Shown: piece by piece, positions 32,248-37,771 of the stretch
Layout: each line of letters begins with the position of its first letter
Position numbering within the stretch: the stretch's first letter is position 1
Assembly (NCBI GenBank): GCA_035700025.1
Contig: DASSOY010000044.1
Coordinates: 1 to 37,771 of the forward strand
Length of the DNA stretch: 37,771 bases
Origin: Bacillales bacterium
Lineage (GTDB): Bacteria; Bacillota; Bacilli; Bacillales; DASSOY01
Direction: 5' to 3'
Translations under genes and position numbers: made by a program
The notes under the pieces: model-generated
Seen by the model: only the letters and a program-made list of their open reading frames with translations
What the model was told of the DNA's origin: nothing
Database searches by the model: none

Positions 32248-32610
32248 GTGAAAAAAATCGAAGCGATTATCCGCCCGCAAAAATTGACGGATACGATCAA
32301 CGGATTGCGAAAAATCGGAATTACCGGCCTCACCGTATATCAAGTCGTCGGACGCGGCCAACAGAAAGATGGAACGGGTGTCTACCGCGGCCACAACTAT
32401 AAGGTAACGCTTCATCCGAAGGTGAAAATCGAAATCGTGTTGTCCGACAATAAGGTTCGTGAAGTGATGAACGTCATTATGAGCACGGCAGGAACCGGAG
32501 AAAACGGGGATGGAAAAATTTACGTCTCGCCGGTCGAGGAAGCGTACAATATCCGAACGGGAGAACCGGATCAAACGATCGACGAACTTGTGAAAAAGGT
32601 GGAGAACTAA
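32248..32610 (+). CDS. glnK: PII-type nitrogen signal protein GlnK
   Basis: The 120-residue protein begins MKKIEAIIRPQKL and has the T-loop G-R-G-Q-Q-K-D-G-T-G-V-Y-R-G-H-N-Y and C-loop G-T-G-E-N-G-D-G-K-I-Y-V-S-P-V of PII proteins. It gauges ATP/ADP and 2-oxoglutarate and blocks the ammonium channel. The GTG start lies 12 bases after GGAGG, which is a wide spacing. It overlaps the amt gene by one base. In B. subtilis the order is reversed (amtB-glnK). Confidence 0.95.
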   Translation: MKKIEAIIRPQKLTDTINGLRKIGITGLTVYQVVGRGQQKDGTGVYRGHNYKVTLHPKVKIEIVLSDNKVREVMNVIMSTAGTGENGDGKIYVSPVEEAYNIRTGEPDQTIDELVKKVEN

Positions 32611-33935
32611 TGGAACTCATTTACTTGAATACCGTCTGGGTTGTCATCGCCGCAGCGATGGTTTTGTTCATGGAAGGCGGATTCAGCTTGCTCGAAGCCG
32701 GTCTCGTCCGCACGAAAAACACCGTCAACGTCACGATGAAAATTTTCGTCGATCTGACCGTCGGCACACTCGCCTACTGGCTCGTCGGCTTTGGCTTCAT
32801 GTTCGGAGATGACGCATTCGGCTTGCTCGGTACGACTCTATTTGCCGCACCGGAAAACGTTCAACTTACGGCGAACTTGCCTACCGCCGCTTACGTCCTG
32901 TTCCAGATCGGATTTGCGGTCGCCTGCATCTCCATCGTTTCCGGAGCCGTCGCCGAACGGATGAACTTCAAGGCTTACATTCTCGTCGCCGTCTTCGTTA
33001 CGATGATCCTCTATCCGATATCCGGCCATTGGATCTGGAACGCCGGCGGCTGGCTCGCCTCCCTCGGTATGAAAGACTTCGCCGGCTCCGCCGCGATTCA
33101 CGCCCTCGGCGGCTTCGCCGCCTTGAGCATGGCCAAAGTGCTCGGCCCGCGCAAAGGCCGGTTTCACTCCGACGGCAGCGCGAACGTTTTTGCGCCGAGC
33201 AACATTCCGCTCGCCTCATGCGGTGCATTCGTGCTCTGGTTCGGCTGGTTCGGCTTTAATGCCGGCAGCACGCTCGACGCATCAAACGCCGCCCTGGCCT
33301 CGATCGCATTGAACACGATGCTCGCGGCCGCCGCCGGCGGAGCGATGACGTTGTTCGTCACAATGTTCAAGTTCGGAAAAGCCGATCCGAGCATGACGAT
33401 CAACGGCGTCCTATCCGGCCTCGTGGCGATCACCGCAGGATGTGCTTACGTCGCGCCCTGGAGCGCTGTCATCATCGGGGCAACCGCAGGTTTCATCGTC
33501 GTTTACGCCACCTTGTTCATGGATTCACTCAAAATCGACGATCCTGTCGGCGCAGTTGCCGTACACGGATTCAACGGCGTTTTCGGGACGATCGCCGTCG
33601 GTCTATTCGATTCCGCGGACGGCCTTTTGACGACCGGCAGCGCGAACCTTCTTCTCGTGCAACTGTTATGCGCCGCAGCCGTCACCTTTTGGGGCCTTGG
33701 CGGAGGATACGCAGCCGCGAAAGGCATCGATAAGCTCGTAGGAATTCGAGCTACAGAGCCTGAGGAAGAAGAAGGATTGGACATGGTTTATCACGGAATT
33801 CCCGCATACAACGACCTCGAGCGTTTTTCGGATCTTCCTTCAGGACTTTACGATTTTCAAGAACATACCGGAATTTCGATCGCCGAAGGAAAACCGCGAA
33901 AGAAGTGGAAGCGCGACAAACATTCAGTCATTTGA
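32610..33935 (+). CDS. amtB: ammonium transporter
   Basis: The 441-residue protein has about eleven hydrophobic helices and the Amt pattern: M-E-G-G-F-S-L-L-E-A-G-L-V-R-T-K-N near the start, A-I-H-A-L-G-G-F-A with the first pore His and V-H-G-F-N-G-V-F-G with the second. The tail (about 385-441) is long and ends in a basic K-K-W-K-R-D-K-H stretch. It takes up ammonium and is controlled by GlnK, with which it is coupled through TAATG. A terminator follows. Confidence 0.95.
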   Translation: MELIYLNTVWVVIAAAMVLFMEGGFSLLEAGLVRTKNTVNVTMKIFVDLTVGTLAYWLVGFGFMFGDDAFGLLGTTLFAAPENVQLTANLPTAAYVLFQIGFAVACISIVSGAVAERMNFKAYILVAVFVTMILYPISGHWIWNAGGWLASLGMKDFAGSAAIHALGGFAALSMAKVLGPRKGRFHSDGSANVFAPSNIPLASCGAFVLWFGWFGFNAGSTLDASNAALASIALNTMLAAAAGGAMTLFVTMFKFGKADPSMTINGVLSGLVAITAGCAYVAPWSAVIIGATAGFIVVYATLFMDSLKIDDPVGAVAVHGFNGVFGTIAVGLFDSADGLLTTGSANLLLVQLLCAAAVTFWGLGGGYAAAKGIDKLVGIRATEPEEEEGLDMVYHGIPAYNDLERFSDLPSGLYDFQEHTGISIAEGKPRKKWKRDKHSVI

Positions 33936-34097: not shown

Positions 34098-34157
34098 CAT
34101 TATTAGACAAGTTACCGTGTCGGCAAAATGGTTTGACGAAAAGTTGAGGTGTATTTC

Positions 34158-35255
34158 TTGAATGTCAAAGTTCGAAAAGATGTGTTGCTAGACTGGTATT
34201 ACGCGATGAAGAATAAAGATTTCGAAACGGCCGATCGGATGAAACAAGAAATCGACACAGCAGAACAAGATGTTTCGGATTTCGAAATGAAAGCACTTTA
34301 CAAATTAATGGCAGCCCGTTACCATTTAATGTACAAGGATTTGGTAAAGTTTTCATCTGTCATCGCCGAACTTGATCTTAATACGAACAATGACCGTTAT
34401 TGGTTGACTTATTATTATCATTTCTTCCGCGGCATTTACCATTACGAACGCCAAGAATACAAATTATCCCTCGATTTTTACAATCGTGCCCGCTTGCACG
34501 TGTTCAACCAAGATGCTGAAGAAGTCGGTGAATTTTATTACCGGCTGGCAGCGACTTATTTGCGAACGTACAAAATCACGTTGACCATCGAGTATGCGAA
34601 GAAAGCGCTGGGCATCTTCAAAAGCAGCCACAATTACAAAAGAATGTCAGGCTGTGAAATGATATTAGGCATTTGCAACCAGGATATCTTTCAGTATAAC
34701 GAAGCAGAAAAGCATTACCAGGACGCTTTAATCATCGCCGAAAAAACACAAGACGAATTGTTGAAAGCAAGAGTGCTGCACAACCTTGGAGTCTTGTATT
34801 CGGAGTTGAATGAACACAAAAATGCGATCCATTACTTGACGCAAGGACAAAAGCTGTTCAAAAACAACGATCTTTATTTAATAACGCAAAATCTGTTTCA
34901 ACTGGCGAAAAACTATATAAAGCTTGATCACATTATGGAAGCCCTTAAGATGTTGGACAAGGGGCTCCGGTTATCGAAAGAGAACGATTACCTCACGTAT
35001 TACTATCGGTGTAAACTGCTCAAAACCAAGTTTTTTGAGCCTCAACATTTTGAAACCATCTATAAAGAAGGGATTGAATATTACAAAGAACATGAAGAAT
35101 GGCAGTTAGTCGTCGAGTACAGTGATGAATTGGGTGCTTACTACGGTGGAATAGGAAAGTTTCAAGAGGCTTATGAGTACTTACTGTTGTCCATTGAAGC
35201 AAGAACAAAAATCGAAAGGGAGCGTGGACTTTCCAATGAAACATTTGATAGTTAA
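34158..35255 (+). CDS. Rap family TPR protein (gene 1 of a tandem set)
   Basis: The 365-residue protein has an N-terminal helical domain (about 1-65) and six or so TPR-like repeats (about 75-350). The Rap hallmark Y-Y-Y-H-F-F-R-G-I-Y is near residue 88, then Q-Y-N-E-A-E-K-H-Y-Q-D-A-L and H-N-L-G-V-L-Y-S-E-L. Rap proteins dephosphorylate Spo0F or bind regulators and are switched off by Phr peptides. The Gln of the phosphatase motif has no clear match: it is F42 without a gap or Q37 with one. I take the TTG at 34158, six bases after TTGAGGTG. It overlaps the Phr-like gene. Confidence 0.85.
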   Translation: MNVKVRKDVLLDWYYAMKNKDFETADRMKQEIDTAEQDVSDFEMKALYKLMAARYHLMYKDLVKFSSVIAELDLNTNNDRYWLTYYYHFFRGIYHYERQEYKLSLDFYNRARLHVFNQDAEEVGEFYYRLAATYLRTYKITLTIEYAKKALGIFKSSHNYKRMSGCEMILGICNQDIFQYNEAEKHYQDALIIAEKTQDELLKARVLHNLGVLYSELNEHKNAIHYLTQGQKLFKNNDLYLITQNLFQLAKNYIKLDHIMEALKMLDKGLRLSKENDYLTYYYRCKLLKTKFFEPQHFETIYKEGIEYYKEHEEWQLVVEYSDELGAYYGGIGKFQEAYEYLLLSIEARTKIERERGLSNETFDS

Positions 35256-35376
35256 GATTATCGTTGTCGCTGTAGTAGGTTTGGGACTATTCGCACTTAA
35301 CGACTTGAATGCTGCAACCCATTTGTCGGCTGACGGGGTTGAGACGAACTCAGTAGACAATACCATTGACGATTAA
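35236..35376 (+). CDS. Phr-like exported signalling peptide precursor
   Basis: The 46-residue precursor begins MKHLIVKIIVVAVVGLGLFA, a typical signal peptide. About 20 residues follow the likely cleavage near N-A-A-T: acidic, ending D-N-T-I-D-D. It overlaps the end of the rap gene by 20 nt, the classic rap-phr layout. A known Phr pentapeptide with a basic second residue is not evident, so the active part is unknown. The ribosome binding site is weak and far (AAGGGAG, 13 bases), so coupling to rap translation is likely. Confidence 0.7.
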   Translation: MKHLIVKIIVVAVVGLGLFALNDLNAATHLSADGVETNSVDNTIDD

Positions 35377-35400: not shown

Positions 35401-35425
35401 CGGCGTGCATGCCAAGTGCACGCCG
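35401..35425 (+). terminator. terminator after the rap-phr pair
   Basis: A perfect 9-bp stem CGGCGTGCA / TGCACGCCG with a 7-nt loop is followed by TTCGCTGTT, a poor T-run. It may only weaken transcription into the next gene. Confidence 0.5.
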
Positions 35426-35522: not shown

Positions 35523-36839
35523 ATGAACGCCAACAAACAAAAACAAGTCCTCGATGATTGGTACGAGGCGATAAAAAATTTCGAGTACGAACGATCCGCG
35601 CAACTGAATAAACGTGTAGATGCCGATTTACTTCTAAAAGATGAAGATTTGATCCTTTACCGGCAGCTGCTTAAGGCAAGATACCTCATCCTGCTTAAAG
35701 ATCACGACAAAGCTGCGCTCTTGCTTGACGGCCTACACCCGCCGGCCAACGAACATCATTGGCTTCACTATTATTTTTATTTTTTTCACGGCCATCTCGA
35801 ATACAATCGAAAAAATTATAAAAAAGCGCTGGCGTTCTACGCCCAGGCGGAAAGGACCGTCTCCGCGCTCAACGACGAAGAATGCGGTGAATTTTATTAT
35901 AAAAAGGCTTCCGCCCTTTACCGCGACCTTCGTTTCGAACGCTCTCGCCGGGATGCCGCAAAAGCACTGGCTTTGTTTGCAGCGCACGCCCATTATAAGC
36001 GAATGGCCGATTGCGAAAATCTGCTTGGATTGCATTTTGAAGATCGGGGCGAGTTGGAATCGGCTCACAACCATTACATGAAAGCATTGTACTACATTAG
36101 AAAGGCAAAAAATACGTCTTCGGAGAACATCATCCTCTACAACATCGGCGTCCTGTACGCGAATCACCGGCATTTTGCCGAGGCTTTGCCTTATTTCAAA
36201 CGTGTTTTTCCGAAATGGCGTGAAACAGACAATGATTTTATTGCGCAAACCTATTATTTTTTGAGCAAATGTTGTTTTCAGCTCGGAAAGACGGTACAAG
36301 GGAAAGACTACTTAGACAAAGGATTGGCCTATGCGATTTCGCACAACAATGTTGACTATCGACACCATTTAAAACTTTTAGAAGCAAAATTCGTGGACCC
36401 TGCTTCGCGTCAACCCGTCTACCAGGAAGCCGTTTCCCACTTCATTAGGAACCACGATTGGACGTTTGTCAATGAATACAGCCGCGAATTTATTTCGATG
36501 AACAACGGAATCGCAAAAGAAAAGCGGCCATGCCAACAAGGGGCGGATCTCGTTTCTGTCGGAAACCATTTGTATTTTCACGCAACCGAAAGTTGGATCG
36601 CCTTTGATAAACAAGAAAGAATCGGACTCTCCCGGAAAGAGTCGAACCTTCTGAAGTTTTTCATCGCTCATGAGGGAGAAATCATTTCGGCTGCCGTCAT
36701 CGCCGCAGAAATATGGAAGGGCTCCATTCAAGCGAGCGGCGTTCGCCAAGCCATTCATCGGTTAAAAAAGAAGTTGGGACCCGCCGCCCCTCTCATCGTC
36801 GGACGTCCGCAAGGCGGCTACGTTTATACGTCGCCATGA
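35523..36839 (+). CDS. Rap-like TPR protein fused to a C-terminal OmpR-type winged helix
   Basis: The 438-residue protein has a Rap-like N-terminal helical domain (1-70), TPR-like repeats (about 75-335; Y-Y-F-Y-F-F-H-G-H-L, Y-N-I-G-V-L-Y-A-N-H) and from about 345 a winged-helix domain: I-G-L-S-R-K-E-S-N-L-L-K-F-F (about 367-380), I-I-S-A-A-V-I-A-A-E-I-W, the recognition helix G-V-R-Q-A-I-H-R-L-K-K-K-L-G (about 406-419) and the wing L-I-V-G-R-P-Q-G-G-Y-V-Y. The phosphatase Gln is Glu41. The ATG is five bases after TCGGAG. No Phr-like gene follows. The likely role is a peptide-gated transcription factor; that is inference. Confidence 0.85.
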   Translation: MNANKQKQVLDDWYEAIKNFEYERSAQLNKRVDADLLLKDEDLILYRQLLKARYLILLKDHDKAALLLDGLHPPANEHHWLHYYFYFFHGHLEYNRKNYKKALAFYAQAERTVSALNDEECGEFYYKKASALYRDLRFERSRRDAAKALALFAAHAHYKRMADCENLLGLHFEDRGELESAHNHYMKALYYIRKAKNTSSENIILYNIGVLYANHRHFAEALPYFKRVFPKWRETDNDFIAQTYYFLSKCCFQLGKTVQGKDYLDKGLAYAISHNNVDYRHHLKLLEAKFVDPASRQPVYQEAVSHFIRNHDWTFVNEYSREFISMNNGIAKEKRPCQQGADLVSVGNHLYFHATESWIAFDKQERIGLSRKESNLLKFFIAHEGEIISAAVIAAEIWKGSIQASGVRQAIHRLKKKLGPAAPLIVGRPQGGYVYTSP

Positions 36840-36855: not shown

Positions 36856-36891
36856 AAAAGGAAGAAGGATATGGAATTTGAGGTGTGAATG

Positions 36892-37771
36892 GTGAAAGGC
36901 GAGCAATTGCGAACAGCGCTCAATCGATGGTATCACTTGATCAACACGGGGAACGGTGAGAAAGCGAAATCGCTCAAGCGCAAACTGGAAGCGTTCGGGA
37001 ACATCCAAGACCCCGATTTGTCTTGCTTTTACCGACTGCTCACCGCTTGGTATTTTTTAATGCAGCATGACTATGACCAATCATCCGCGATCTTAAACAC
37101 GATTTCGCCTCATCGAGAGAAAAGCCATTGGCTCAATTATTACTATTATTTTTTTCGCGGCGTAAACGCTTTTTATTTTCGGAACTATAACGAAGCTTTG
37201 CAGTTTCTCCAAGAAGCGAAACCTTTCTTACGTGACAAGCCGGAAATCGAACAAGCGGAATTTTATTATCGAATCGCTTCCGTTTATTTCAGAACCCATC
37301 ATTTCAGCTTATCGATCAAGTTTGCAACAAAGTCGCTCCGCGCGTTTTCGAACAAAGATCAATCGGAACGCATGGCTGACTGCGAAAATTTACTCGGACT
37401 CAATTACATGTCGCTCGAGGATTATGATCGGTCCATGATCCACCTGAAGACCGCCTTAAACCTTTGCAGGGCCGCGAAAAGTGACAATTTGTTGAAATGG
37501 GTGATCTATCAAAATCTCGGACTTCTTTACGCGCACAAAGGCGAATATGATCGTGCCCGAACCTTTTACGAGGAAGTATACAGATGTATCGACACCAAGT
37601 ATGAATGGATCCAACTCCAAAATATTCACGAACTATGCGAGACGTATTTTCTGCTGAATGAAGCGGATAAAGGGAAGGCCCTGTTAGCCGAAGGGTTACG
37701 TAAAGCAAACGATCCATCGAACGACTACTTTCATCGGTTCAAAGTGCTGGAAGCGAAATTCGCAGCACGCG
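36892..37771 (+). CDS. third Rap-like TPR protein (partial, runs off the window)
   Basis: The frame is open to the window end, 293 codons, and begins MKGEQLRTALNRWYHLINTG. It repeats the same plan: a helical N-domain, Y-Y-Y-Y-F-F-R-G-V-N, E-R-M-A-D-C-E-N-L-L-G-L and N-L-G-L-L-Y-A-H-K-G. It is closer to gene 2 than to gene 1. The phosphatase Gln is Pro41. I use the GTG at 36892, six bases after GAGGTG; the ATG one codon earlier is three bases from it. Whether it has a winged helix like gene 2 lies beyond the window. Confidence 0.8.
   Translation, partial: MKGEQLRTALNRWYHLINTGNGEKAKSLKRKLEAFGNIQDPDLSCFYRLLTAWYFLMQHDYDQSSAILNTISPHREKSHWLNYYYYFFRGVNAFYFRNYNEALQFLQEAKPFLRDKPEIEQAEFYYRIASVYFRTHHFSLSIKFATKSLRAFSNKDQSERMADCENLLGLNYMSLEDYDRSMIHLKTALNLCRAAKSDNLLKWVIYQNLGLLYAHKGEYDRARTFYEEVYRCIDTKYEWIQLQNIHELCETYFLLNEADKGKALLAEGLRKANDPSNDYFHRFKVLEAKFAAR

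Follow-up and report, generated by a model that had tools for sequence, protein, structure and literature searches.

Tandem Rap-type proteins with a C-terminal OmpR-type winged helix, likely peptide-controlled one-component regulators, in a Bacillales genome

Can a Rap-type peptide receptor carry a DNA-binding domain of its own? An N-terminal HTH is described as optional in the RRNPPA family, and a published tree places its loss at the root of the Raps (PMC12700828). Raps are also described as the sole RRNPPA members without an HTH (PMC9765709). A preliminary description of a 37,771-nucleotide stretch of DNA from a Bacillales bacterium (contig DASSOY010000044.1 of assembly GCA_035700025.1, here contig C44; its whole length is referred to as the window) had proposed that one of its genes encodes a Rap-like TPR body fused to a C-terminal OmpR-type DNA-binding domain. 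The locus contains the following features.

32610-33935: ammonium transporter gene, upstream of Rap1.
34149..35255, plus strand: Rap1, a classical Rap of 368 aa without a DNA-binding domain (RapH_N at 27.7 bits, cut-off 27; TPRs; no Trans_reg_C).
35236..35376, plus strand: phr1, a 46-aa secreted-type propeptide with a basic start and a hydrophobic stretch, overlapping the 3' end of Rap1.
35401..35425, no strand assigned: inverted repeat between phr1 and fusion A, a candidate terminator or operator.
35523..36839, plus strand: fusion A, a Rap body with an OmpR-type winged helix, 438 aa.
35544..35696, plus strand: RapH_N three-helix bundle of fusion A, residues 8-58 (30.1 bits, cut-off 27).
35760..36518, plus strand: TPR body of fusion A, residues 80-332, from the helices of the AlphaFold model and structural matches.
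36549..36836, plus strand: winged-helix domain of fusion A, residues 343-438.
36741..36785, plus strand: recognition-helix stretch of fusion A, residues 407-421 (14 of 15 identical in fusion B).
36889..37771, plus strand: first 294 residues of fusion B, which continues over the contig end onto contig C32 (449 aa in total).

The frame of fusion A is uninterrupted from the ATG at 35523, which has a GGAG five bases 5' of it, to the stop at 36839, and the coordinates and length first given for it are correct. Pfam matches exceeded the curated cut-offs for RapH_N, for TPR_12 (33.1 against 30.1 bits) and for Trans_reg_C at residues 365-434 (39.8 against 26.2 bits). A receiver domain (Response_reg) was absent from the Pfam families listed, as was any HTH family at the N terminus, where RapH_N begins at residue 8. 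By sequence, the nearest solved structures to residues 9-293 were Raps (RapF, 3.3e-22), and the C terminus weakly matched solved OmpR-type DNA-binding domains (best 0.0013). AlphaFold modelled the body as an intact Rap fold, and the structural matches at ranks 1 to 37 in Foldseek were all Rap and NprR chains. In the same full-length model, pLDDT fell below 50 at residues 329-344, 353-402 and 421-438, which were mostly drawn as helix; the underlying alignment contained no winged-helix relatives for the C-terminal region. Because the full-length model had failed there, we modelled the winged-helix domain separately. Alone, it was predicted to adopt the OmpR/PhoB fold, with a four-strand sheet, three helices and a C-terminal wing whose motif is retained, and it resembled DNA-bound PhoB. 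The proposed combination of a Rap body and a C-terminal OmpR-type winged helix was thus borne out, both by the Pfam matches and by the fold of the isolated domain. Given the Trans_reg_C score and this fold, fusion A is Rap-derived and stands outside the strict Rap family, since it contains a DNA-binding domain.

Of the outcomes named as undoing this reading, the lack of a winged-helix fold was contradicted by the model of the isolated domain; a frameshift or a misassembly joining two genes was another. Fusion B starts 49 bases past fusion A and is cut off where C44 ends. The final 141 bases of C44 are identical, in reverse, to the beginning of a further contig of the assembly, C32, on which the frame proceeds into a winged helix; fusion B therefore comprises 449 aa and repeats the layout of fusion A. 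C32 by itself, without the join, holds the TPR end and the winged helix within one frame. Codon scores favoured the true frame of fusion A in 10 of 10 tiles over residues 1-410, junction included, and that of fusion B in 10 of 10 tiles, to residue 410. Although the assembly comprises 90 contigs and fusion B is complete only over a contig overlap, we rejected an artefact as very improbable: fusion A is unbroken within one contig, fusion B has the same junction in another at 35% identity to it, and both genes carry an in-frame coding signal. We regard the architecture as firm.

The two proteins are identical at 153 of 438 positions (35%). The N-terminal 72 residues account for 18 of these identities; the linker has 4 in 20 positions, and residues 340-364 have 5 in 25. 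The recognition helix is the most alike stretch of both. Aligned with classical Raps, the fusions retain the TPR helix near residue 320 and lack the last helix pair, in place of which stand the linker and the winged helix.

In a body tree of 40 rows, A and B were sisters (support 93/86) within a clade that contained five near-complete other Raps of their own genome (99/97). This tree used 5 of 31 viral Raps and all of 28 loci except L014 and L036, and left out two own-genome Rap pieces, of which one is broken and the other truncated at the end of its contig. Among the other Rap loci of this genome, L041:3483-4460 is without part of the helix bundle, G000:C49:6191-6649 is a Rap remnant with an internal stop and L043:7835-8239 is a Rap cut by a contig end. 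With midpoint rooting, the own-genome Raps branched beside NprR-like proteins and not beside other Raps (93/93), a position that would be consistent with the N-terminal HTH having been lost independently a second time.

In a tree of 38 winged helices, A and B were again sisters (96/91). The fusions and all atypical response regulators grouped apart from 28 other regulators (100/99), and within this group A and B adjoined the atypical regulator of their own genome, their nearest relative (91/55, the SH-aLRT value of 55 being low). The program warned of long branches that meet, A with B among them. A first version had taken in 4 of 19 further regulators, and the tree was redone with all 28 wanted; here the overlapping loci L044 and L045 gave an identical protein. 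A mixed alignment of winged-helix pieces and Raps was left unused, the former having been misplaced into the TPRs. The atypical regulators are a rare family of OmpR-type proteins with a degenerate receiver (L037:15068-15787, L053:5405-6106 and L104-L109). Response-regulator models align with two of them over the greater part of the protein, and none of four tested matched the Pfam receiver domain at E 1. In four of six loci of one genus (L104, L106, L107 and L108), the regulator adjoins a secreted-type protein of about 176-188 aa, similar from locus to locus, which is a candidate target. We infer that the simplest history is one fusion, between an own-genome Rap and the output end of an atypical regulator, followed by a long-ago tandem duplication.

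Would the Rap body still bind a peptide? Alanine mutants of RapF D194 and N227 are reported not to bind PhrF (PMC3601957). Fusion A retains the equivalents of both (D174 and N207), along with those of Y152, Y226 and Q263, and is changed at those of Y66, Q183 and R223. The N227 equivalent, the peptide-anchoring Asn of RRNPPA receptors, is also Asn in fusion B, which keeps Q263 and is changed at D194, Y152 and Y226. RapJ is described as blind to PhrC when E147 or F250 is mutated; within the essential set given for RapJ other than K300, fusion A keeps Y150, D192 and N225 and is changed at E147 and F250 (PMC3601965). At the position of RapH Gln47, fusion A has Glu41 and fusion B has Pro. RapF has Gln and yet is no phosphatase. 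A reading of Glu41 as the mark of a dead phosphatase was dropped, as RapH Q47E is reported to retain wild-type phosphatase activity (PMC3035606).

The peptide suggested as a partner of fusion A, a Phr-like peptide encoded just upstream, does exist as phr1. It overlaps the end of Rap1, and fusion A starts 146 bases past it. By position phr1 therefore belongs to Rap1, and its tie to fusion A is weaker than had been suggested. In B. subtilis, RapF D194 pairs with an Arg or Lys of Phr; past its signal region, Phr1 contains neither. A search for small secreted-type frames at gene ends gave no phr gene after fusion A or fusion B. Three of the five other own-genome Raps, and both Tuberibacillus Raps, have such a frame overlapping or abutting their end; the remaining two own-genome Raps are likewise without a clear phr. 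The usual setting of Rap-Phr signalling appears to be present in the host, as judged from its Spo0F (5.6e-47 against the 3q15 Spo0F chain), Spo0A (413 bits, cut-off 200) and five SBP_bac_5 proteins. The Phr-like propeptide that follows another Rap on contig C35 (L037:4153-4428, minus strand) holds three near-identical repeats (KSVDHEFGLIL, KSVDDEFGLIL and KSVDHEFGLIL), as if several copies of one peptide might be released. A V-D core is common to three own-genome propeptides, with NSVDNTIDD in the window (35236-35376), NNVDGGIR in L039:6971-7111 and KSVDHEFGL in L037:4153-4428, in contrast to the Phrs of B. subtilis, which have a basic residue.

Repeat, shuffle and genome pattern scans found no recognisable operator for the fusions. 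The inverted repeat at 35401-35425 was equalled in 1 of 500 shuffles. It can also be read as a direct repeat with 11-base spacing. As an operator this second reading was rejected, an equal pattern being present in 35 of 1,000 shuffles at spacings of 10-12, in 8 of 1,000 at a spacing of 11 and in 44 of 516 window tiles; the genome held no second match with fewer than three mismatches. A comparison with the region upstream of the own-genome atypical regulator showed no shared element. Promoter-like sites numbered 7 against 4.6 in shuffles, none of them shortly 5' of fusion A. After fusion B, a hairpin with a T run is visible by eye, and none was reported by a scan covering loops of 3-8; also after fusion B lies an 82-aa frame (L038:7893-8141, minus strand) that contains a DEFNEF repeat and runs of His/Asp and of Arg.

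To examine how widely the layout occurs, we searched 397 genomes of the order, own genome included, with fusion A, scoring at most four candidates per genome: 180 matched at 1e-5, and among the matches listed only the window gene spanned both parts. A winged-helix profile run on the same genomes at 1e-12, with 12 candidates scored per genome, matched the own genome in three places and one other (G175) in one, within a frame of 235 aa. In the family of the latter, 9 of 26 genomes had a match at 1e-8, the frames being 98-240 aa long. Class-wide, 101 of 398 genomes (own and some of the same order included) matched at 1e-8; the matches listed outside the own genome lay in frames of 124-330 aa, except for one of 2,640 aa (G588). 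There the OmpR-type winged helix occupies G588:C1:152095-152328 of a 2,640-codon open frame. The DNA-binding domain sought in these searches was the OmpR-type winged helix, and the relatives searched came from outside the own genus and family. Fifty-four plasmid records and two phages matched fusion A, none covering 80% of the query; in viral contigs, 31 loci gave Rap-type matches within residues 1-326, and a search with the winged helix gave none. A protein search in which the 7,996 candidates sharing most words were scored returned the window's two own proteins and a kinase, and the C-terminal part alone found only itself among 229 candidates. A ten-row alignment search found one true Rap (Tuberibacillus), fusion A being the sole match of 19 with both RapH_N and Trans_reg_C. 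Protein searches of this kind are poor grounds for claiming that homologues are absent. Scans of genome contigs found no relatives of fusion A, and with the winged helix found four Chloroflexota winged helices at 28-32% identity. Among the papers listed in searches of the open full-text literature, a set without subscription papers or preprints, no title or abstract opening described a Rap with a C-terminal winged helix. The layout is therefore known from one genome in searches of genomes, plasmids, phages and viral contigs, and within these limits we found no existing family that has it. A published RRNPP_detector survey is described as having dropped clusters with N-terminal-side TPRs or unfamiliar domains and as having sought only the HTH models of known receptors, filters that form a blind spot for fusion-like architectures (PMC10075063).

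We consider the system a variant of the RRNPPA kind with a likely regulatory role. Peptide-gated DNA binding, both halves of which we infer from sequence, is the mechanism that we favour: the tandem proteins are probably, by a modest measure, one-component regulators in which an imported Phr-type peptide would bind the Rap body and control the attached DNA-binding domain. Phr binding is reported to compress Raps (PMC3601965), and most simply such compaction would free or pair the winged helices. Since their recognition helices are alike while their helix bundles and pocket residues differ, A and B may have similar operators and different inputs. Against this proposal stand the pocket changes (Y66, Q183, R223, E147 and F250 in A; also the Asp, Y152 and Y226 in B), the want of an own phr gene or a recognisable operator, the Phr1 sequence and the restriction of the layout to one genome.

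The same observations invite other readings. The winged helix might bind DNA while the Rap body, free of peptide control, acts in dimerisation or docks a response regulator, such as Spo0F or the atypical regulator, that would be the real input. The missing phr and the altered pockets, that of B more than that of A, would agree with such an orphan regulator, as would the grip of RapF on the DNA-binding domain of a response regulator (PMC3246441), but copy A keeps the Asp and Asn required for peptide binding by RapF, and its body has an intact Rap fold in the model, which leaves this reading unlikely. Still less likely is an NprR-like, bifunctional protein that would dephosphorylate Spo0F and bind DNA, with peptide selecting between the two. 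Spo0F is present and Glu41 corresponds to the active RapH Q47E (PMC3035606), whereas RapH Phe58 is Ala in A, other Spo0F contacts differ, and the Pro of fusion B falls at position 47. That the winged helix has become a protein-interaction module or a relic is improbable, in spite of the divergence of linker and early strands between A and B; the recognition helix is conserved far above the 35% overall identity, and the wing motif and the PhoB-like fold are retained.

Under peptide-gated DNA binding, the origin of the pair can be outlined with roughly even confidence. A Rap lineage past the loss of its N-terminal HTH would have regained DNA binding at the other end from a response-regulator output domain. 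The receiver of an atypical response regulator would have been swapped once for a Rap body, with peptide taking over the role of phosphate as the switch, and the gene duplicated afterwards; the two tandem receptors, of differing specificity, would converge on the same operators. The low SH-aLRT value for the tie to the own-genome regulator and the long-branch warning weigh against this outline. If true, Rap-type sensing would once more be coupled to DNA, now by an unrelated domain at the other terminus, and a circuit of peptide, Rap and regulator would be collapsed into a single protein, suggesting a modular route to peptide-controlled OmpR-type switches. Raps are known to inhibit response regulators, in the case of RapF by gripping a DNA-binding domain (PMC3246441); the fusion links a Rap body covalently to such a domain.

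Among known systems, the Raps (RapF, RapH, RapI, RapJ and the Rap of phage Phi3T) are nearest in sequence and fold, and share the three-helix bundle and TPR body. They are described as ending in TPR helices without a DNA-binding domain (PMC9765709), whereas the fusions have a winged helix in place of the last helix pair. NprR likewise joins a three-helix bundle and TPR body to a DNA-binding domain, and similar working is expected; its HTH, however, is of another type and N-terminal, where Pfam finds none in fusion A. OmpR/PhoB response regulators have the winged helix in common with the fusions, as do the atypical regulators of L037, L053 and L104-L109, but both groups begin with a receiver or receiver-like domain where the fusions have a Rap body. 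CadC and ToxR are, like the fusions, one-component regulators with an OmpR-type winged helix; they are membrane-bound with the winged helix first, whereas the fusions are soluble and carry it last. MalT-like regulators place a TPR-like sensor before a C-terminal HTH, as the fusions do, but their HTH is of the LuxR type, and they have an ATPase domain and no Rap helix bundle.
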